DNA of 43,578 nucleotides from Planctomycetales bacterium (lineage in GTDB: Bacteria; Planctomycetota; Planctomycetia; Isosphaerales; Isosphaeraceae), in assembly GCA_027451885.1 (NCBI GenBank), contig DAIDHX010000002.1, positions 1-43,578 on the forward strand, written 5' to 3'. A model generated the notes under the pieces. It made no database searches, was not told the DNA's origin, and worked only from the letters and a program-made list of their open reading frames with translations. Of the stretch, positions 21,225 to 34,314 are shown piece after piece; position 1 is the stretch's first letter; each line of letters begins with the position of its first letter. A program made the translations under genes and the position numbers.

Positions 21225-24200
21225 TTACTCCGCCCTGACAAGCTCCTCGAAAAGCTCCCGCACCCGTTGCGTAACGCGGTTCGATTCTTCCATGAATGCC
21301 TCGACTGACTCGCCCGGGCGCTTGGCGTCGTAGCCCAGACGCTTGGCGAGTCCTTCAATACCGGGTAGGTCTTCCGGAAGCTCGGCGTCTCCACGCCCGT
21401 GAATCAGCCTGAGCCGGGCCTCGATCGTGCGCAGTAGCTCGTACGATTCACGAAGCTCGTCGTGCGTGGGTGCGCTCAGGATTTCGAGCTTGCGCAGATT
21501 TTTAAGTGCGTCCCAGTAGTTGGGTCGGATCACATCCGAGAAGTCGGGTGCATGGCGAAGTTGCAGGTACTGCGTGATGAATTCAAGGTCGGCCAGGCCC
21601 CCTGCGCCTCGCTTGAGGTCATGCGGTTTACTCGCGGCTTCGAGCCGCTTACGCATCGAGCGGACTTCCTGAACCAGTTGCGCACGATCGGTTGGAAGTG
21701 CGAGCGCGTCGTGGATTGTCGCCATGACGGCCTCACCGAATCCTCCGGTGGCGTGGATCACCCGAGCGCGGGTGAGTGCAAGCCGCTCCCAGGTCTGGGC
21801 GCCCGCGCGGAGATACTGCGAGAAAGCGTCAAGAGTTAGGACGAGCGGGCCGGCCGCGCCATAGGGTCTGAGCCGGGCGTCCGCGGTGTAGAGCGGACCT
21901 GCGCCCACACCGTCCGCGAGCGTGCGCAAGACCTGCTGCGCCAGGCCAGTGACGAACGTGTCGTTCGCGAGAGCGCTCGAGCCTCCGCGTGTGAAGCCTT
22001 CCCCTTCGTGCAGGAAAACAAGGTCGAGGTCGCTGTGGTAGTTGAGCTCGCGACCACCGAGCTTACCGAGGCCAAGAATTGCGAAGCGATCGCGTTTGCC
22101 GCTCGCCAATCGCGGCAAGCCGTACTTCGCCTCGCGCTTCCGCCAGAGGTCAAGCGCGACCTCAATCACCACCGCCTGGGCGACGTCCGCAAGCTCGCGA
22201 GTGACCTCGCGAATCGGCTCGCGGCCCAGGATGTCGCGTGCCCCGATCCGAATCCATTCCTTGTTGCGGAAGCTCCACAGGATTGGCGCCAGGTCGACCG
22301 CGCCCTTGCACAGCTCGGCGAGCTCAGCGCGGATCGCCGAGCCAGACAGCGGCCGATCGACCACGAGCGAATCGATGAGATCGTCGATCATGCCCGGATT
22401 GTTGATCAGAATCTCGGTGAGGAAGCGGCTGTTCGAGCAGATCTCCACATAGAGCCTGAGGCTGGGCGGATTCAGGTTGAAAAGCTCCCACAGCACCGCC
22501 TTGGCTCCGAGCGAGGCTGAGACCTTTTCAAGATGCGTGAGCGTGAGGTCGGGGTCAGGGGTGCGAGTGACGGCCTCAAGCAAGCGAGGCGCGATCGCCG
22601 CCAGAAAGTGCCGGCACCGCGCCTGCGAAAGAAACGCTACATCTTCACGCGCAAGCGCTAGCATATTGTGATAGGCGATTTGCGGATCGCGGAATGGGTA
22701 AGGCGCGAGCGCCTCGCGAATGGATTCCGGGCTAGGATCGGGGTCGAGCACCAGGTCGACCACCAGATCGACGGCCGGGTCTGGATCAGCACTGAACGCG
22801 TCGTGCAAAAGGTGGTTCAGGATACGGCGGTTGAGCTCGGTTTTGCCGCGGTAATCATGGAGAAAGCGTTCGGCGGGGCCGCCGCGTTCTTCCCAGGGGC
22901 TTGCGAGCTGGTAGCCCATGCGCACGGCGAGCGCGCGGAGCTCGGCCGGGTCGCGGGGCATCTCGTGCGTCTGGCGATCGAGCACAATTTGCAGCCGGTG
23001 TTCCACCTGGCGCAGGAAGCGGTATGTATCGTCCATGATGTGCCGCTCCTCGGCGGTCAAGCAGCCGACCTGTTCGAGCCTGGCAAGTGCCTCGAGCGTG
23101 TTGCCGCTTTGAACCTCGGGATACTCGCCGCCGTGGAGTAGTTGCAGAAACTGCACCACGAACTCGACGTCGCGAATGCCGCCAGTCCCCGTTTTGACCT
23201 CCACCTCCGCGATGCCCGCCGAAAGCGTGCGCTGCTCGATCTTACGCTTGAGGGCCTTGATCTCGGCGATTTCCGCCGCGCCCAGGTAGCGTCGATACAC
23301 GAAAGGGGTGACCGCACGCTGAAAGATTTGCCCGAGCTCGAGATCGCCCGCCGCCGGCCGCAGCTTGATGAGCGCCTGCCGCTCCCAGGTTCGTCCCCGC
23401 GTGACGTAGTAACCCAGCGTGGCGTCGAGCGACTGCGCGAGCGGTCCCTGGTCGCCGTCGGGCCGCAGCCGCATATCGACGCGGTAAACCTTGCCAAGCG
23501 CCGAATGTTCCGAGAGCAGCCTGAGAATCTCGCTGCCCAGGCGCGCGAAATACTCCGCGTTCGACACCACCTTGGGCCCCGTGGTTCGGCCCTCGTGATC
23601 GTAGAGAAAAACGAGGTCGATATCCGAGCTGTAATTGAGCTCGCGGCCGCCGAGCTTGCCCAGCGCGAGCACCACGAACCGCGCGTCGACTCCGCCCGCG
23701 GAACGTGGGGAGCCATAGCGCTCGGCGAGCCGCGTCGTTGCGACGCGGAGCGAGGCTTCCACGCAGGCGTCGGCCAGGTCGGAAAGGTCGCTCGTGGTCA
23801 TCTCGAGCGAGAAGCCGCGAACGAGGTCGTTGTACCCGATGCGGAAGGATTCGCGGAGCCGGAAGCGGCCGAGAGCCTCGGCCTGATGGAACTCGCCGAG
23901 AGGCGCGAGCTCGCGCCAAAGATCCTCCACGAGCGCATCGCGATCCCTGCGTTCCGCGCCTTCTCGCAGCCAGTCGAGGAGTGACGGATCGCGGATAAGG
24001 ATTTCGCCGTAATGGCGGCTTGCGCCCAGAAGTTGGAGCAGGATCTCGGTGGTGCGTGGGTTGGCCGCGAGTTGCCGGACAATGCGCTCGCGGGGGTTGG
24101 CCGCGAGGAATCGCTCGAAGTTCACGAATGCGAGCGTGGGGTCAGCGCAGCGCGGGAGCAGGGAATCAAGCTGCACGGCGAGCCGGGCGTAGTCGCCCAG

Positions 24201-24335
24201 GGCGGCAGTGTTTTGCCGCACCATCTCCTCGAGCGCGCGTGCTGCGCGTGCGGCGTCGCGCACGCCGAGCCCAAGAAGCCAGGGCTCGAGTAGCTCGGCC
24301 GCATGATACCGGTAGAGGAACCAGTCAGGTGTCAT
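21225..24335 (-). CDS. glnE: bifunctional glutamine synthetase adenylyltransferase/adenylyl-removing enzyme
   Basis: GlnE adds AMP to, or phosphorolytically removes it from, a Tyr of glutamine synthetase, tuning nitrogen assimilation under PII control. Both nucleotidyltransferase domains are present: LGKLGGRELNYSSDIDLVFL in the N-terminal deadenylylase half and LGKLGGRELNYHSDLDLVFL in the C-terminal adenylylase half, each with the GG and DxD metal-binding residues. Length from ATG 24335 is 1036 aa, slightly above E. coli GlnE (about 946). A TTG at 24353 is the alternative start; no clear Shine-Dalgarno separates them. It is the last gene of the run miaB, SMI1-like, glnE, with 40 bp after the SMI1-like stop. 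No glnA or glnB is in the window. Confidence 0.95.
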   Translation of the reverse strand: MTPDWFLYRYHAAELLEPWLLGLGVRDAARAARALEEMVRQNTAALGDYARLAVQLDSLLPRCADPTLAFVNFERFLAANPRERIVRQLAANPRTTEILLQLLGASRHYGEILIRDPSLLDWLREGAERRDRDALVEDLWRELAPLGEFHQAEALGRFRLRESFRIGYNDLVRGFSLEMTTSDLSDLADACVEASLRVATTRLAERYGSPRSAGGVDARFVVLALGKLGGRELNYSSDIDLVFLYDHEGRTTGPKVVSNAEYFARLGSEILRLLSEHSALGKVYRVDMRLRPDGDQGPLAQSLDATLGYYVTRGRTWERQALIKLRPAAGDLELGQIFQRAVTPFVYRRYLGAAEIAEIKALKRKIEQRTLSAGIAEVEVKTGTGGIRDVEFVVQFLQLLHGGEYPEVQSGNTLEALARLEQVGCLTAEERHIMDDTYRFLRQVEHRLQIVLDRQTHEMPRDPAELRALAVRMGYQLASPWEERGGPAERFLHDYRGKTELNRRILNHLLHDAFSADPDPAVDLVVDLVLDPDPSPESIREALAPYPFRDPQIAYHNMLALAREDVAFLSQARCRHFLAAIAPRLLEAVTRTPDPDLTLTHLEKVSASLGAKAVLWELFNLNPPSLRLYVEICSNSRFLTEILINNPGMIDDLIDSLVVDRPLSGSAIRAELAELCKGAVDLAPILWSFRNKEWIRIGARDILGREPIREVTRELADVAQAVVIEVALDLWRKREAKYGLPRLASGKRDRFAILGLGKLGGRELNYHSDLDLVFLHEGEGFTRGGSSALANDTFVTGLAQQVLRTLADGVGAGPLYTADARLRPYGAAGPLVLTLDAFSQYLRAGAQTWERLALTRARVIHATGGFGEAVMATIHDALALPTDRAQLVQEVRSMRKRLEAASKPHDLKRGAGGLADLEFITQYLQLRHAPDFSDVIRPNYWDALKNLRKLEILSAPTHDELRESYELLRTIEARLRLIHGRGDAELPEDLPGIEGLAKRLGYDAKRPGESVEAFMEESNRVTQRVRELFEELVRAE

Positions 24336-24375
24336 GAGAGCGCTCGTGGCCAACGCGACGCTCGAGAGCGATCCA

Positions 24376-25131
24376 TCAGGAGGTCGAGGCCTTGAGCGCG
24401 GAATCGGTCAAGGGCGCGGCGGGTTCGTGCTGGATATGCCGCACGATCGATTCCACCTCGGGCCGGGAAAGCCCCAGCTCGAGCGCGATCTCGAGCTCGC
24501 AGGCGCCTGATGTCGCAAGTTTGCGCACCGTGTCACGATACTTCGCGAGCCGGCTCTCAAGCGGGGGCGCGGCGACATGCTCGCGATGGAGCCGCCAGGG
24601 CGCTCCGAGGTCCGGATAGCCCCGGTCAAACCAGTACTCCCGGCCACCCTGCCGCAAGAGCTCGAGGAACCATTCATCAAAGCTGCGCGCAATCACCCGA
24701 GGCGCCTCGAGCGCGTGATCGTCCCCCGAGGTGAAAACCGGGCACCCCGCGCCCGGAAGCCGATACGCCAGGTCAATGCAGACCGTCTGCAAGTTGGGAT
24801 TGCCCAGCTCGAACCAGCTTTCTGGCTGGATCAGCATGCCGGGATTGGCGGCGAAGGGAATCATCGGACCAATCGCCGAGATCGGATGTACGAGTGGGCC
24901 CAATCGATAGAGCCCGTTCGACAGAATCAGCAGCGAGCGCAAACCCTGCGGCAAACGGAATCCATGCCGCTCTTCCCAGCTTGCGATGGCGGCGGGATCC
25001 GCCCCCTCTCGGCAAGGCTCCTCGACTTCAGCAGCCCAGTCCGCGAGCACGGCCGGGTCAGGCCCGAGCGCGAGGTCGACCTCGGCCGCGGCGAGCCAGC
25101 GCTTCACGAGCTCGGCGAGTGGCAAGGGCAT
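24376..25131 (-). CDS. SMI1/KNR4-family protein with C-terminal helix-turn-helix-like tail
   Basis: 251-aa cytoplasmic protein. The core matches the SMI1/KNR4 (SUKH) fold: DPAAIASWEERHGFRLPQGL, then RSLLILSNGLYRLGPL, and further strands ending IARSFDEWFLELLRQGG. Bacterial SUKH proteins often act as immunity proteins, but there is no toxin gene here. After residue 205 a helical stretch (VRKLATSGACELEIALELG, then LSRPEVESIVRHIQ) looks like a helix-turn-helix of the type found in small regulators. The ATG follows the miaB stop by 10 bp with GAGG 5 nt upstream, so it is translated from the miaB-glnE message. A regulatory or protein-binding role is plausible; no specific function can be given. Confidence 0.8.
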   Translation of the reverse strand: MPLPLAELVKRWLAAAEVDLALGPDPAVLADWAAEVEEPCREGADPAAIASWEERHGFRLPQGLRSLLILSNGLYRLGPLVHPISAIGPMIPFAANPGMLIQPESWFELGNPNLQTVCIDLAYRLPGAGCPVFTSGDDHALEAPRVIARSFDEWFLELLRQGGREYWFDRGYPDLGAPWRLHREHVAAPPLESRLAKYRDTVRKLATSGACELEIALELGLSRPEVESIVRHIQHEPAAPLTDSALKASTS

Positions 25132-25141
25132 GACGTCCTCG

Positions 25142-26569
25142 TCAGGCGGGTTCGACGGGATTCTCGACCCGTCCGAAGAGGGTCACAGCACTCACGGCTT
25201 CAACCCGCACCGGGACAAACCGGCCAACCCAGCGCTCGTCGCCTTCAAACACCATGATCCGATCGCACAGCGTACGGCCCATGAGCTGCTCCTGCCCGCC
25301 CCAGCCCTCACGCCTCGTCGTCGAGCGGCTTGGGCCTTCCACCAGTACATCAAACCGCCGGCCGACAAGTTGTTCGTTGTCCTCCAGGCTGATGCGCGTT
25401 TGCAAGGCGAGAAGCGCGTTGTTGCGCCGCTTCTTCTCGTCTTCCGGCACGTCGTCGGGATAAAGCGAATCCGCCTTCGTACCTTGCCGCGTGCTGTATT
25501 TGAAGATGAAGCTGTTCTTGAACCGAGCCCGCTCCACGAGCCGCATGGTGCGCTCGAATGACGCCTCATCCTCGCCGCAGAAGCCAACGATGAAATCGCT
25601 CGAAATCGCCACCCCTGGGATCGTCTCCCGCGTGCGGGCAAGCATCTCGTCGTACTGGGCCACCGAATACATTCGCTTCATACGCTTGAGAATCACGTCG
25701 CAACCGCTCTGTGCCGGAACGTGAATCGACCGCGAAATGCCGGGGAAATCACGCACCGCCTGGAGCAGGTCGTCGGTCATGTCGTTCGGAAAGTTGGTGA
25801 CGAACCTCACGCGATCAATGCCCGGCGTGCCCTGCACGGCGTTCAAAACATCGGACAGTCGCCAAGTCCGGCCGTCCTGCCCCTTTTTCTCGTAGCTGTT
25901 CACCGTCTGGCCGAGCAACGTGATCTCACGCACCCCCTGATCGACCAGCATCTGTGCTTCCGTGAGAATGGCCTCCGGTGAACGGCTCTGCTCGGGCCCG
26001 CGCACCGACGGAACCACGCAGTAGGTGCAAAATTTGTCGCAGCCCATCATGACCCGGATGTATGCCTGGAACGGCGTGGGGCGAAGCGAAGGTTCGCGAT
26101 CCGGGTCGTAAACCGTGAAAGACTGCGCGATCGATTCGAGCGTGCCGTCACGCCTGGCCTTGCTCACGGCCATCGCCTTGCCCCCGCCCGATTTCACCGC
26201 GGCCAGGAGCTCCGGCACCCGGTCAAGTTGCCCGGGGCCCACAACCAGATCCACGTGAGGCGCACGTTTCAAAATCTCCGCCTGATCCTTCTGAGCCATG
26301 CAACCGAGTACGCCCACGGCCAGGTCGGGATTCCGCGACTTGAGCTTCCGCACACGCCCAAGCGCACTATAAATCTTGTCCTCCGCGTGCTGGCGGACCG
26401 AGCACGTGTTGTAGAAAACCGCGTCCGCGGCCTCCACGTCATCCGTGAGCTCGTAACCCTCCGAACGCAGCTTCGCCGCCACGATCTCGCTGTCCAGCAT
26501 ATTCATCTGGCAGCCGACCGTCTCCAGGTAGAGCTTCTTCCTCGCCTCCGCAGCCAACTCTTCCGCCAT
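25142..26569 (-). CDS. miaB: tRNA-2-methylthio-N6-dimethylallyladenosine synthase
   Basis: Radical SAM methylthiotransferase that converts i6A37 to ms2i6A37 in tRNAs reading UNN codons. The N-terminal MTTase domain has auxiliary-cluster cysteines C20 (VGCQMN), C56 (NTCSVR) and C90 (LGCMAQ). The radical SAM cluster is C177/C181/C184 in MMGCDKFCTYCVVPSVRG. The C-terminal TRAM domain (NEQLVGRRFDVLVEG onward) ends the 475-aa product, the normal length. First gene of the minus-strand run with the SMI1-like gene and glnE; divergent from the hpnR-like gene. The miaA partner is not in the window. Confidence 0.95.
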   Translation of the reverse strand: MAEELAAEARKKLYLETVGCQMNMLDSEIVAAKLRSEGYELTDDVEAADAVFYNTCSVRQHAEDKIYSALGRVRKLKSRNPDLAVGVLGCMAQKDQAEILKRAPHVDLVVGPGQLDRVPELLAAVKSGGGKAMAVSKARRDGTLESIAQSFTVYDPDREPSLRPTPFQAYIRVMMGCDKFCTYCVVPSVRGPEQSRSPEAILTEAQMLVDQGVREITLLGQTVNSYEKKGQDGRTWRLSDVLNAVQGTPGIDRVRFVTNFPNDMTDDLLQAVRDFPGISRSIHVPAQSGCDVILKRMKRMYSVAQYDEMLARTRETIPGVAISSDFIVGFCGEDEASFERTMRLVERARFKNSFIFKYSTRQGTKADSLYPDDVPEDEKKRRNNALLALQTRISLEDNEQLVGRRFDVLVEGPSRSTTRREGWGGQEQLMGRTLCDRIMVFEGDERWVGRFVPVRVEAVSAVTLFGRVENPVEPA

Positions 26570-26848: not shown

Positions 26849-28396
26849 ATGAAGATCCTGGCGATTCATCCCAGCGCGCTTATGTATACAAAGGTGTTTC
26901 TGCGTCTTGAGCCGCTTGGGCTTGAGCTGGTGGGCGCGGCGGCCAGACGGGCAGGACATGACGTGCGGCTAGTGGATCTTCAGGTCGAGCGCCCCTCTCG
27001 GGTTGAACGCGAGCTCGAGCAGTGGCGTCCCGACGTGCTGGCCATGTCCTGTAACTACCTGGCCAACGTGCCTGAGGTGATTGATCTTGCAAGGCAGGCA
27101 AAGGCTCTCCATCCGGGACTATTCGTGGTTGTCGGTGGGCATAGTGCGTCTTTTATTGCCGACGATCTGATTGCGCACGGGGCGGGGGCGATTGACTGCG
27201 TGCTCCGCGGCGAGGCCGAGGCGTCGATCGTCAACCTGCTCGAGGCAATCGCTGGCGGCTCGGGTGCGCGTCTCGATGCGGTTCCGGGCGCGGTTTATGC
27301 TGGCGGGTGCGGCCCCGCGGCAGCGTTTGTCAAGGATCTCGACGATCTTGGGCCGGCGCGAGACTTAACGAGGCGCAGACGCAGGTACTACATTGGCGTG
27401 CTCGATCCCTGCGCCTCGATCGAGCTCTCGCGTGGCTGCCCATGGGACTGCTCATTTTGCAGCGCCTGGACGTTTTACGGCCGGGGCTACCGGGTGAAGA
27501 GCGTGGAGGCCGCCGCCGAGGAGCTCGCTTCCATCCGCGAGCCCGGCGTCTTCATCGTCGACGACGTCGCCTTCATCAAGGCTGAGCACGGCATGGCCCT
27601 GGGCGAGGCCGTCGCCCGGAAGGGAATCCAGAAGTCCTATTACCTCGAAACCCGCGGCGATGTCCTTCTCCGCAACAAGGATGTCTTTCGCTTCTGGAAA
27701 ACTCTCGGCTTGCAGTATATCTTTCTGGGGCTCGAGGCCATCGACGAGGAAGGGCTCAAGCTCCATCGAAAACGGATCTCACTCTCAAAAAACTTCGAGG
27801 CGCTCGAATTCGCACGCTCCCTCGGCCTCATGACCGCCATCAACATCATTGCCGATCCCGACTGGGATAAAAGCCGGTTCGAAGTCATCCGCCAGTGGTG
27901 TCTCGAGATCCCTGAGATCGTCAATATCAGCGTCAACACCCCTTACCCCGGCACCGAAAGCTGGCTCACCGAATCGCGCACGCTGACGAGCCTCGATTAC
28001 CGGCTCTACGACATCCAGCACGCAGTGCTTCCCACCCGTTTGCCGCTTACCGAGTTTTACGAAGAGCTGGTGAAGACCCAGCAGGTGCTCAACCGCAAGC
28101 ATCTGGGTTTCCACGCGCTGGCGGGGCTTTCTCAGATTCTGGCGCGCAACCTGGCGCGGGGCCAGACGAACACCCTCAAGATGCTGTTCAAGTTCAACTC
28201 GGTGTATGATCCGCGTTTGCAGCTCGCCGATCACAATCGTGAGGTCGTCTATCGCATGACGCCCCCCGCGGGTGCTCATGCGGTGGTCGATGCGCGATCG
28301 CTTTATGTTCACGCGGCGAATGGACGCGCTCACCGTGCCCTGGCCGGCGCGGATGAGCAATTCGTCGACGCTGGTCGAGCCAATGTTAAGTCTTGA
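26849..28396 (+). CDS. hpnR: B12-binding radical SAM enzyme, probable hopanoid C-3 methylase HpnR
   Basis: 515-aa enzyme with an N-terminal cobalamin-binding domain (HDVRLVDLQVE, VVVGGHSASF) and a radical SAM domain with C197/C201/C204 in SRGCPWDCSFCSAWTFYGRG. The start MKILAIHPSALMYTKVFLRL, the segment FIVDDVAFIKAEHGMALGEA and the segment EIPEIVNISVNTPYPGTESW match what I recall of HpnR, which methylates C-3 of bacteriohopanepolyols using SAM and methylcobalamin. HpnP (C-2 methylase) has a different N-terminus. No other hopanoid genes (shc, hpn) are in the window. It is divergent from miaB with a 279-bp gap; the ATG has only a weak GGGG upstream. Other class B radical SAM methylases are the main alternative. 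Confidence 0.75.
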   Translation: MKILAIHPSALMYTKVFLRLEPLGLELVGAAARRAGHDVRLVDLQVERPSRVERELEQWRPDVLAMSCNYLANVPEVIDLARQAKALHPGLFVVVGGHSASFIADDLIAHGAGAIDCVLRGEAEASIVNLLEAIAGGSGARLDAVPGAVYAGGCGPAAAFVKDLDDLGPARDLTRRRRRYYIGVLDPCASIELSRGCPWDCSFCSAWTFYGRGYRVKSVEAAAEELASIREPGVFIVDDVAFIKAEHGMALGEAVARKGIQKSYYLETRGDVLLRNKDVFRFWKTLGLQYIFLGLEAIDEEGLKLHRKRISLSKNFEALEFARSLGLMTAINIIADPDWDKSRFEVIRQWCLEIPEIVNISVNTPYPGTESWLTESRTLTSLDYRLYDIQHAVLPTRLPLTEFYEELVKTQQVLNRKHLGFHALAGLSQILARNLARGQTNTLKMLFKFNSVYDPRLQLADHNREVVYRMTPPAGAHAVVDARSLYVHAANGRAHRALAGADEQFVDAGRANVKS

Positions 28397-28536: not shown

Positions 28537-30498
28537 ATGATCCTCGTTTTTAATTGTCCGGAGTGCCGCAAGGAATACGAGATCGACGGCAAATTGGCGG
28601 GACGCAAGTCGCGCTGCGGGCAATGCGGCACGACTTTCCGAATCCCGGTTCCGAGCGGCGGCGCCGGGCCGGTCTTATCCGCGCCGGCTTCGCCTGCTTC
28701 CCCACCGCCTCGGCCGGCAAGCACGTCCGTTCCCCGAACACCTTCGCCCTCACCCGCTCGTCCTGCCTCGCGACCGCTCGACGCGCCACCCAATGAGTTC
28801 TGGGAAGAAGTCGACGACAAGGTCGAATTCTGGGACGCGGAGGATGATGCATCGCCGGCCGCCTTCAAGTCAGCGCCGAAGCCCGTCTCGGTGTACGATG
28901 ACGAGGTCCTCCCCGCACCGCCGCGTGTCCAGCCGCTCGTCGAGGCCAGCAAGTCGAAGAACAAAAAGAAAAAATCCAGCTCCTACGATGATGACTCCTC
29001 GCTCTGGACCCGCGTCGCCACCGGGTACGCGATCTTCTTCATGGCCACGATGGGGTTTGTCGCGCTCACGGTGACGACCGACCTCTACTCCTATCAATTG
29101 ATGCGCTGGGCCCTGGTCGCGAATGTCGCCCTGTTCCTCGTTGCGACCGTCGTCTGCGGAATCGCCGGTTTCGTGGGCACCGTCGTCTACCCCTTCGGGG
29201 AATCGCTCTCCTGCGGGCTTTGCTATATTTTTATCCCTTTCTACGCAATCTATTATATTTTCACGCGTTGGGATGATATGAAGAAGCCGGTGTCCTTGTA
29301 CGCCGCTTCTGTGGTCTGCATGTCGATCTCGGGCCCGGTTTTCACCTGGGCCGCCGGGCTGATGCGGGAGCAGAATGCCCGAATGGCCGGTGTGGCGCGG
29401 GGGCCTCAGGTCCCTGGCATGCCCGCTCCGGCGATGCCTCCTGGCCCTGGGGGCGGTTTTCTTCCTGGTGTACCCCCTGAGTTCGACCAGACCCGGGGAC
29501 GGATCGGCGACACCAGCGTGAAGCTTGTGATTGAGGGCATTCCCACGAATCTCGATCCCAATGTGGGCCTCACGGGCGAGGAAGTGCGCAGGGCGATCGT
29601 CGCGCGCGTCGGCCAGGCGCAACCTCAGATCAACGGCTGGATTTGGGGCCAGCGAAACGGCGGCAGCCCATCGTTGCGGATGATTCCCGAGCCCGACGCG
29701 GCGGCGCTGGCGAACTCGATCAACTTCGGTCGCGTGACCCGGCAGGGTAATACCATCAATGTCACGCTCGATCAGGATTTTCTCGCCGCGGTTCCACGCA
29801 TACCCAAAAACGAGCTAGCCCAGGCGCAGCCGCCGCCCGCGCCCGCACCGGACAATTTCGGCGGTAAGAACGAGCCCCAGATTCCCGCGAATGCCGATCC
29901 TGTCACGCGATCGTTGCTCGAGCTCAAAAACGCTGGTAACGATCACTTCAAGAAGGTACGAGCCCTCGAACGGCTGCGGCGGACGAAATCAGTCGACCGT
30001 GCAAGCGAGGTCGTGCAGGCCGTCGTCTTATTTCTGACAGACGACGATAGCTCCGTTGCTGCCGAGGCCGCGAAGACGCTGGGCTTCTGGCCAGGTCAGG
30101 AGACGGTCCAGGCGCTTCTGGACCGGCTTGACGACGATCGAAGTGGGGTACGGCACGAGGCGATTCGAGCCTTGGGCAAGATTCGCGATCCCAGGACCGT
30201 GGAGCCTTTGCTCGCCCGGCTCAGCCATAACCAGTTCGAAGTGGAAGACGCCATCAAGGACATCGGCGAGCTCGCTGAGCCGGCGTTGATTGTGCATCTC
30301 AAGGATCCGGAAATCGAGCAAAGGCGATTTGCATGCAAGATGCTCAAGCGAGTGGGAGGGATGGATACGCTCGTCGCCATGCAGTCGATGTCGCCCGACC
30401 CCGATCGCGGCGTCCAGATGGAAGCCAGAGAAACGTGGAAGGCAATCGTTTCCCGGGTCGGCGCGCCTCCGCCGCTGACGAAGAAAAAGAAGCGGTAA
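28537..30498 (+). CDS. membrane protein with MJ0042 zinc ribbon and HEAT repeats
   Basis: 653-aa protein of unknown role. The N-terminus is an MJ0042-type zinc ribbon, CPECRKEYEIDGKLAGRKSR and then CGQC, with two CxxC pairs. A Pro/Ser/Ala-rich and then Asp/Glu-rich linker leads to about four membrane segments (residues about 165-285: YAIFFMATMGFVALTVTTDL, WALVANVALFLVATVVCGIA, YIFIPFYAIYYIF, VVCMSISGPVFTWAAGLM). A soluble region follows, then HEAT repeats at residues about 490-640 (EAAKTLGFWPGQETVQALLD; HEAIRALGKIRDPRTVEPLL). ATG 28537 has GAGG 7 nt upstream. Combined zinc-ribbon/membrane/HEAT proteins are frequent in planctomycetes; a scaffolding role is only a guess. Confidence 0.75.
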   Translation: MILVFNCPECRKEYEIDGKLAGRKSRCGQCGTTFRIPVPSGGAGPVLSAPASPASPPPRPASTSVPRTPSPSPARPASRPLDAPPNEFWEEVDDKVEFWDAEDDASPAAFKSAPKPVSVYDDEVLPAPPRVQPLVEASKSKNKKKKSSSYDDDSSLWTRVATGYAIFFMATMGFVALTVTTDLYSYQLMRWALVANVALFLVATVVCGIAGFVGTVVYPFGESLSCGLCYIFIPFYAIYYIFTRWDDMKKPVSLYAASVVCMSISGPVFTWAAGLMREQNARMAGVARGPQVPGMPAPAMPPGPGGGFLPGVPPEFDQTRGRIGDTSVKLVIEGIPTNLDPNVGLTGEEVRRAIVARVGQAQPQINGWIWGQRNGGSPSLRMIPEPDAAALANSINFGRVTRQGNTINVTLDQDFLAAVPRIPKNELAQAQPPPAPAPDNFGGKNEPQIPANADPVTRSLLELKNAGNDHFKKVRALERLRRTKSVDRASEVVQAVVLFLTDDDSSVAAEAAKTLGFWPGQETVQALLDRLDDDRSGVRHEAIRALGKIRDPRTVEPLLARLSHNQFEVEDAIKDIGELAEPALIVHLKDPEIEQRRFACKMLKRVGGMDTLVAMQSMSPDPDRGVQMEARETWKAIVSRVGAPPPLTKKKKR

Positions 30499-32682: not shown

Positions 32683-33648
32683 TCAGCTCCGGAGCTGGTC
32701 TCCCTGGCTGATTTTGCGGCCTCGGAGGAATTCCGCGGCATCGAGCGCCCGGGCGCCCGGCGTCTGCACGCGCAGCAAGGCCAGGGCGCCGGGGTTGCAC
32801 GCCACCACGATCCGGTCGCCGTCCGCTTCAATCACCGAGCCCGGCCTGGCGTCGGAAGCGCCCTCGCGGACCGCACTCCTGAGCACAATCAGCCGCGTGA
32901 TGATCCCGGGAGTGTCGACGCGCAGAAGCATGGTCGATGCCCCTGGCCAGGGCTGCATGGCCCGAATGTGGTTGTGCACGACACGCGCGGGACGATTCCA
33001 GCGGATCGCGCTGTCGTCTTTCCGAAGCTTGGGCGCGCGCGTGGCTCGGGACGGGTCCTGGGGCGAAATCACGGCCCGGCCGCCGAACAGGTCCGCGAGA
33101 GCCTGCTTCACCAGAGGCGCGCCCAGTCGCGCAAGCCGGCCTTCGAGCTCCCCGGCCGTCTCGTCGGGATCGATCGCAAGCCGCGCAACCGCAATCACGC
33201 CCCCAGCGTCGATCCGCGGAGTCATCTGAATCACCGAAACACCCGTTTCCGTCTCGCCGTTTTCAATCGCCCTGGCAACGGGTGCCGCGCCTCGGTAGGC
33301 GGGGAGAACCGACCCGTGCAAATTCAGGCCGCCTAAACGAGGGACCGCGAGCAGCTCCGGAGAAAGAATCTGGCCATAGGCCGCGGTGATCAGCACGTCG
33401 GGGGCGAGGCCGCGCATCTGAGTCACGCTCTCGGCCCCGTTCACGTTCTCAGGCTGGAAGACCGGGATGCCGCGCCTGACCGCGGCTTGTTTAATCGCGG
33501 CCGCAATGATCTCCTGCTTGCGGCCCTGCGGCCGGTCAGGCTGGGTAACGAGCGCAACTAACCCAGGTCCATCATCCGCCAGCAGTTCAAAGGTCGGCAG
33601 CGCGAAGTCACCCGTGCCGAGCATCACCACCCGCGCGGACTCTGGCAT
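32683..33648 (-). CDS. fmt: methionyl-tRNA formyltransferase
   Basis: Formylates initiator Met-tRNA with 10-formyl-THF. The catalytic triad is visible: N109 and H111 in LNLHGSVLPAYRGAAP and D147 in RIDAGG. AAYGQIL precedes it, as in the family. The C-terminal tRNA-binding domain starts around residue 205 (NHIRAMQPWPGASTMLL). The length of 321 aa is normal. ATG 33648 is preceded by GGAG with 8-nt spacing, and that ribosome binding site lies inside the end of def; only 3 bp separate the def stop from this start, the common def-fmt arrangement. Confidence 0.95.
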   Translation of the reverse strand: MPESARVVMLGTGDFALPTFELLADDGPGLVALVTQPDRPQGRKQEIIAAAIKQAAVRRGIPVFQPENVNGAESVTQMRGLAPDVLITAAYGQILSPELLAVPRLGGLNLHGSVLPAYRGAAPVARAIENGETETGVSVIQMTPRIDAGGVIAVARLAIDPDETAGELEGRLARLGAPLVKQALADLFGGRAVISPQDPSRATRAPKLRKDDSAIRWNRPARVVHNHIRAMQPWPGASTMLLRVDTPGIITRLIVLRSAVREGASDARPGSVIEADGDRIVVACNPGALALLRVQTPGARALDAAEFLRGRKISQGDQLRS

Positions 33649-33651
33649 GGT

Positions 33652-34314
33652 CTAGACTCCAGGCTCAGCCGGTTGCTCAGACGCCGCCACGGCCGGCTCT
33701 TCTCCAGGGGCATACCCTGTCGCCGCGAAGGCCGCTGAAGGGTGAGGCATCTCCGCAAGCTTTTGCTTGAGACTCTGATCGCTCAGAATCCGCCCCTGGT
33801 TTTGCCCCTGACGGAATTCAAGCTCAAATCCACGAATTGCTTCCGTGAAATTCTTGAGCGTCGCCGGCTCCAGGTAATCAATAAACAGCTTGCCGTCCAG
33901 ATGGTCGGTCTCATGCTGGATCGCCCGGCTCAGAAGATCGTCCACGTCGCGCTCGAATAGCTCGCCAGTCAGATCATACGCCCGCACTCGAATCTTGCGC
34001 GCTCTACGCACCTTCGCATAAAGCCCAGGCAGCGAAAGACAGCCTTCCTCATCCTCGATCGTGGAATGCCGTTTCACGATCTCCGGATTGATGAAGACTT
34101 GCTCCTCCGTGCGCTGCTCTCGATCCGCGGTGAGGTTCAGTATGAAAAAACGAAACGGGAGCGCAACCTGGTTCGCGGCCAGGCCAATGCCTCTGGCATC
34201 GTACATCAGCTCGAACATCTGGCGCACGCTGGTGCGAAGATCGTCATCAATCTGAAGCACGGGCCGTGATGGGAAGCGCAGGGCAGGGTGCGGATGGCGA
34301 ACAATTCTCAGCAA
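33652..34314 (-). CDS. def: peptide deformylase (TTG start)
   Basis: Removes the formyl group from nascent proteins using a bound metal. All three family motifs are present: GIGLAANQV (42-50), EGCLS with metal ligand C92, and QHETDHLDG with H134, catalytic E135 and H138. The product starts at a TTG (34314) with GGAG 9 nt upstream; the first residues, MLRIVRHPHPALRFPS, match the usual N-terminus, so no longer start is needed. At 220 aa it is longer than typical (about 170) owing to a C-terminal Ala/Glu/Pro-rich extension. It is immediately upstream of fmt. The stop is TAG. Confidence 0.95.
   Translation of the reverse strand: MLRIVRHPHPALRFPSRPVLQIDDDLRTSVRQMFELMYDARGIGLAANQVALPFRFFILNLTADREQRTEEQVFINPEIVKRHSTIEDEEGCLSLPGLYAKVRRARKIRVRAYDLTGELFERDVDDLLSRAIQHETDHLDGKLFIDYLEPATLKNFTEAIRGFELEFRQGQNQGRILSDQSLKQKLAEMPHPSAAFAATGYAPGEEPAVAASEQPAEPGV

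Follow-up and report, generated by a model that had tools for sequence, protein, structure and literature searches.

3-Methylhopanes in rocks serve as markers of aerobic methanotrophy, and the locus described here raises the question of whether planctomycetes could also be a source of them. The window (the entire 43,578-nucleotide stretch of DNA that we analyzed) holds an open reading frame for which the original prediction was a hopanoid C-3 methylase, HpnR, in a planctomycete-like genome. That prediction pointed to a cobalamin domain, a CxxxCxxC motif and the NISVNTPYPGTESW segment, and all three were found in the encoded protein. The gene and its parts are as follows.

26849..28396, + strand: hpnR, hopanoid C-3 methylase, 515 aa (TIGR04367 match, clade position, 66.7% identity to Methylococcus capsulatus Texas HpnR)
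26891..27238, + strand: N-terminal B12-binding domain of HpnR, residues 15-130 (PF02310, 82.5 bits)
27419..27898, + strand: Radical SAM domain of HpnR, residues 191-350 (PF04055, 59.5 bits)
27437..27460, + strand: CxxxCxxC [4Fe-4S] motif, C197/C201/C204 (motif search)

The reading frame is intact, with an ATG start, 515 codons for amino acids and zero internal stops, and in an alignment its M1 falls where other HpnR proteins begin. The window protein matched TIGR04367 (hopanoid C-3 methylase HpnR, equivalog) at 852.1 bits (E = 1.1e-256), with residues 1-490 aligned to positions 1-489 of the 490 in the profile. This is about 200 bits above the curated NCBIfam cut-off of 650 bits, and the next family in the NCBIfam search scored about 690 bits lower. 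The motif reads C197-P-W-D-C201-S-F-C204, and all three cysteines are invariant across 11 planctomycete HpnR proteins. Among 163 near-invariant columns defined from 51 other HpnR proteins, the window protein deviates at four (A29G, F181Y, F193L, and S213G), none of which is a motif cysteine. The gene is single-copy in the source genome. The name HpnR is borne out by the full-length match over the cut-off together with the position of the protein within the HpnR clade. The enzyme family is already known, the gene is an unremarkable member of it, and neither a new system nor new biochemistry is involved. Judging from its sequence, we are highly confident that it is a genuine, functional hpnR that was probably gained once, its predicted product being a cobalamin-dependent radical-SAM C-3 hopanoid methylase.

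The gene tree comprised 52 HpnR proteins and five of the nearest non-HpnR homologues found in planctomycetes; its HpnR sequences drew on a scan listing the 80 nearest loci, which brought in no acidobacterial or actinobacterial HpnR, and it contained no HpnP. In this tree a long branch with full support divides all HpnR proteins from the nearest other B12-radical-SAM homologues, and the branches within the HpnR clade are short. The clade contains M. capsulatus Texas, Tistlia consotensis USBA 355, and Kozakia baliensis DSM 14400, and the phylogenetic check advised in the original prediction placed the window protein inside it, alongside strains reported as 3-methylhopanoid producers (60-68% identity to their HpnR). 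The M. capsulatus protein has domains like those of the window protein and aligns with it over the full length at 66.7% identity, whereas the window host is a planctomycete, the window gene adjoins miaB and fmt, and the window protein has about 25 additional C-terminal residues. Among the matches listed, the closest came from two uncultured planctomycete genomes (79% identity), and the named relatives were Aquisphaera insulae JC669 and Paludisphaera soli JC670 (Isosphaeraceae; 70-72% identity). Both of these are named strains with whole genomes whose HpnR proteins share a gene clade with that of the window; the flanks of the P. soli hpnR locus match those of the window, and the window's own genus forms a separate branch. 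A PDB sequence search with the window protein returned remote relatives only (9ccb, 6fd2, and TokK), and a search of plasmids for hpnR matched Kozakia alone. Separately, the HpnR of a metagenome-assembled genome labelled Methyloversatilis (Betaproteobacteria; L052/L056) was almost identical to the Methylocaldum (Methylococcaceae) protein, which may reflect mis-binning or a recent transfer.

In the reaction proposed by analogy with other enzymes of this class, a [4Fe-4S] cluster held by C197, C201, and C204 would split SAM, a radical would arise on the A-ring of the hopanoid at C-3, and methylcobalamin on the N-terminal domain of HpnR would supply the methyl group. The substrate would come from the same cell through enzymes encoded elsewhere: HpnC, HpnD, and HpnE would lead to squalene, squalene-hopene cyclase would convert it to diploptene or diplopterol, and HpnH and HpnG would begin the bacteriohopanepolyol side chain. 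According to PMC5462960, Welander and Summons (2012) found that M. capsulatus needs hpnR for methylation at C-3. In the alphaproteobacterial species examined, HpnR methylated bacteriohopanepolyols and not C30 hopanoids, and T. consotensis USBA 355 and K. baliensis DSM 14400 contained 3-methyl C32 hopanol at 0.02% and 0.10%, respectively (PMC12583986). Because of this alphaproteobacterial preference, the product in the window host would most likely be a 3-methyl bacteriohopanepolyol, present at a low level.

The source genome (6.18 Mb in 316 contigs, 98% complete, 0.25% contamination) was searched family by family for hopanoid genes. One contig (C58) carries genes for squalene-hopene cyclase (724 bits, cut-off 431), HpnH (425 bits, cut-off 225), and an HpnG-like phosphorylase (126.8 bits, below the curated cut-off of 187.1) in a row. 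Genes for HpnC (330 bits, cut-off 250) and an HpnD-like protein (263.9 bits, below the curated cut-off of 278.6) are in tandem on contig C105, and HpnE is encoded on contig C6 (483 bits, cut-off 283). The cyclase and the hpn genes that the original prediction recommended seeking elsewhere in the genome are therefore present on other contigs. Neither of the two outcomes that it named as grounds for rejection, a protein placed outside the HpnR clade or a genome lacking the cyclase, was obtained. It had also described hpnR as having no adjacent hopanoid gene, which is correct: the surrounding genes are miaB, glnE, fmt, and def along with uncharacterised ones, and hpnR shares no operon with hopanoid genes in this genome. 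In two non-Isosphaeraceae planctomycetes (G198:C6:137644-144371 and G220:C5:67466-72261; L018 and L013), the distance between hpnR and the squalene-hopene cyclase gene is 1.4-3.4 kb, with both on the same strand, unlike the unlinked window gene, and the HpnR proteins of this pair are some of the most divergent ones sampled.

The genes surrounding hpnR in the window are listed here from left to right.

21225..24353, - strand: glnE, conserved left flank (NF008292, 637 bits; synteny)
24376..25131, - strand: uncharacterised 251-aa gene between glnE and miaB, conserved left flank (synteny; no NCBIfam match)
25142..26569, - strand: miaB, divergent neighbor and conserved left flank of hpnR (TIGR01574, 439 bits)
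28537..30498, + strand: uncharacterised fast-evolving 653-aa gene, beside hpnR in the window's genus only (no NCBIfam match)
32683..33648, - strand: fmt, conserved right flank (TIGR00460, 248 bits; synteny in g1, g272, and g279)
33652..34314, - strand: def (peptide deformylase), conserved right flank (TIGR00079, 150 bits; synteny)

Full hpnR was found in 17 of 45 Isosphaeraceae genomes and squalene-hopene cyclase in 44 of the 45; in one further genome of the family (G399), the hpnR match ends exactly at the contig end. The carriers span five genera (g1, g270, g272, g279, and g282), and the gene is in every sampled genome of each. All 17 Isosphaeraceae sequences formed one clade in the HpnR tree (support 100/99). 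Because the copies sampled from the family form one gene clade with A. insulae and P. soli, we assign the host to the Isosphaeraceae, and the planctomycete source suspected originally is confirmed, the host lying within the Planctomycetota. In a host tree from MiaB, GlnE, Fmt, and Def of 20 loci, which is unrooted, a branch with support of 100/99 set the hpnR carriers apart. The miaB gene is on the same side of hpnR in all five genera. The left flank (glnE, the 251-aa gene, and miaB) adjoins hpnR in members of five of the five genera and is 3.7 kb off in one g282 genome, miaB being outside the stretch read in two g272 and two g282 genomes, and the fmt-def right flank is common to g1, g272, and g279. 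Among ten sampled genomes without hpnR, the distance from miaB to fmt was 200-335 bp in seven and 2.3 kb in one, with fmt located elsewhere in the other two. Pairwise dN/dS for hpnR ranged from 0.07 to 0.17, with dS near saturation for the window pairs, and hpnR is under purifying selection.

These observations suggest that one clade of the Isosphaeraceae carries hpnR as a stable trait, probably gained once. The most economical account is that hpnR was inserted a single time next to miaB in the common ancestor of the five genera; the host tree being unrooted, this direction (gain, and not loss elsewhere) is probable rather than certain. The gene would have been gained in the miaB-fmt-def region of an ancestor of the Paludisphaera/Aquisphaera type and would thereafter have been inherited vertically under purifying selection. 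Some smaller features of these loci are also worth recording. The 653-aa product encoded at 28537-30498 (+) had matches of 32-35% in two other g1 genomes only and is absent beside other hpnR genes. One Isosphaeraceae hpnR (L143; G438:C1091:9603-11048) has an in-frame TGA and a match that lacks the first residues and is either a broken copy or an assembly error. Two Isosphaeraceae genomes without hpnR (G402 and G419; g275) each have two squalene-hopene cyclase copies, the second scoring about 660 bits.

Several other explanations for the window gene were weighed. Families of the BchE and HpnJ type give weak matches to the window protein, and the notion that it is one of these or another B12-radical-SAM enzyme, and not HpnR, can be given practically no weight. 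BchE (anaerobic Mg-protoporphyrin cyclase), which has the same layout of B12-binding and radical SAM domains, was the best non-HpnR NCBIfam model but scored far too low (TIGR02026, 161.5 bits against a cut-off of 481.35); HpnJ was likewise rejected (TIGR03471, 67.1 bits against 577.6), and those full-length homologues that are not HpnR share 29-34% identity and branch apart from the clade. HpnP, the hopanoid C-2 methylase, is likewise a B12-radical-SAM methylase of the hopanoid A-ring, though of a different family. It was absent among the NCBIfam matches of the window protein, and because that protein is placed in the HpnR clade, identity with HpnP is very unlikely. It also seems very improbable that the contig came from a contaminating organism or that the gene was transferred recently, either of which would make the planctomycete assignment wrong. 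The assembly is fragmented (316 contigs), but the glnE-miaB-hpnR and hpnR-fmt-def orders are kept in related genomes, the gene tree and host tree unite the same genera, the GC content of hpnR is near that of its contig (61.0% vs 62.2%), and contamination of the genome is only 0.25%; we ruled out a contaminant or recent passenger on synteny, host tree, and GC.

Two further explanations accept the family and concern what the enzyme does. Family membership does not fix the substrate, and hpnR is unlinked to hopanoid genes at the window locus, so a planctomycete HpnR-family methylase might have drifted to another terpenoid or another hopanoid carbon. We consider this improbable given the 60-68% identity to HpnR of reported producers, the short branches in the HpnR clade, the presence of squalene-hopene cyclase in all 27 planctomycete genomes examined that have full-length hpnR (17 Isosphaeraceae and 10 others), and the proximity of hpnR to the cyclase gene in the two genomes noted above (1.4-3.4 kb). 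A less remote concern, which is compatible with a functional hpnR, is that the gene is intact but silent or rarely used and that these planctomycetes make no measurable contribution to the record of 3-methylhopanes. Four of the 12 alphaproteobacterial species with hpnR in one study had no detectable 3-methylhopanoid and most others had less than 0.3% (PMC12583986), and hpnR alone is therefore no proof of a source. Against this stand the dN/dS of about 0.1 (purifying selection) and the retention of hpnR in every sampled genome of five genera, which argue that the gene is used at least sometimes, and we regard the silent state as rather unlikely. We favor a functional hpnR, and from the gene data the Isosphaeraceae that carry it, cultured species included, would likely be a 3-methylhopanoid source.

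For biomarkers, 3-methylhopanoids are already known not to be specific to methanotrophs (PMC5462960, PMC12583986, PMC8590665), and hpnR is known beyond them in acetic acid bacteria, Actinobacteria, Nitrospirae, and Acidobacteria (PMC5462960). The effect would thus be one added source and not an overturned rule. Our literature search, which covered mainly open papers, found among them no report of 3-methylhopanoids or hpnR in planctomycetes. If cultured Paludisphaera and Aquisphaera make 3-methylhopanoids, planctomycetes of soils and wetlands would have to be counted among the sources.

The distribution of hpnR was also surveyed across the phylum in an even sample of 392 planctomycete genomes. 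Eleven, including that of the window, exceeded the HpnR cut-off. Eight of the ten others form one clade (support 100/99), and the remaining two (G106 and G248, of one genus) group with Nitrospirota HpnR in the tree. G248 is a single 3.46-Mb contig with hydrazine synthase, squalene-hopene cyclase, and hpnR (HpnR, 862 bits). Because it encodes the alpha, beta, and gamma subunits of hydrazine synthase (1573, 667, and 666 bits to PDB 5c2v, respectively), G248 is an anammox bacterium. The loci in this genus are as follows.

L181:6837-8384 (-) and L180:2448-7139: loci of G248, the anammox genome carrying hpnR
L010: locus of G106, the second genome of the anammox genus carrying hpnR

Within the family of this pair, hpnR was found in two of 33 genomes. 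A common origin of all planctomycete hpnR is unsupported by the tree and not firmly rejected (p-AU 0.074), and the Isosphaeraceae and the eight-genome clade as one group are not rejected (p-AU 0.258). The hpnR of the anammox pair was, judging from the tree, most likely acquired separately. We tentatively propose that planctomycetes acquired hpnR at least twice, as a clade trait in the Isosphaeraceae and in one anammox genus, and that they are thereby an overlooked source of 3-methylhopanoids, a proposal that could readily go either way. If the anammox genus does make 3-methylhopanoids, an anaerobe joins the list of sources, and 3-methylhopanes would be further weakened as a sign of aerobic methanotrophy, since anammox bacteria live without oxygen. 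The interest lies in this specific prediction for cultured Isosphaeraceae and one anammox genus; the enzyme family is unchanged and the biomarker was already qualified. The hydrazine synthase alpha domain PF18582 is by itself no marker of anammox. Another planctomycete genome (G306) has eleven matches to this domain, in frames of 555-1356 aa.
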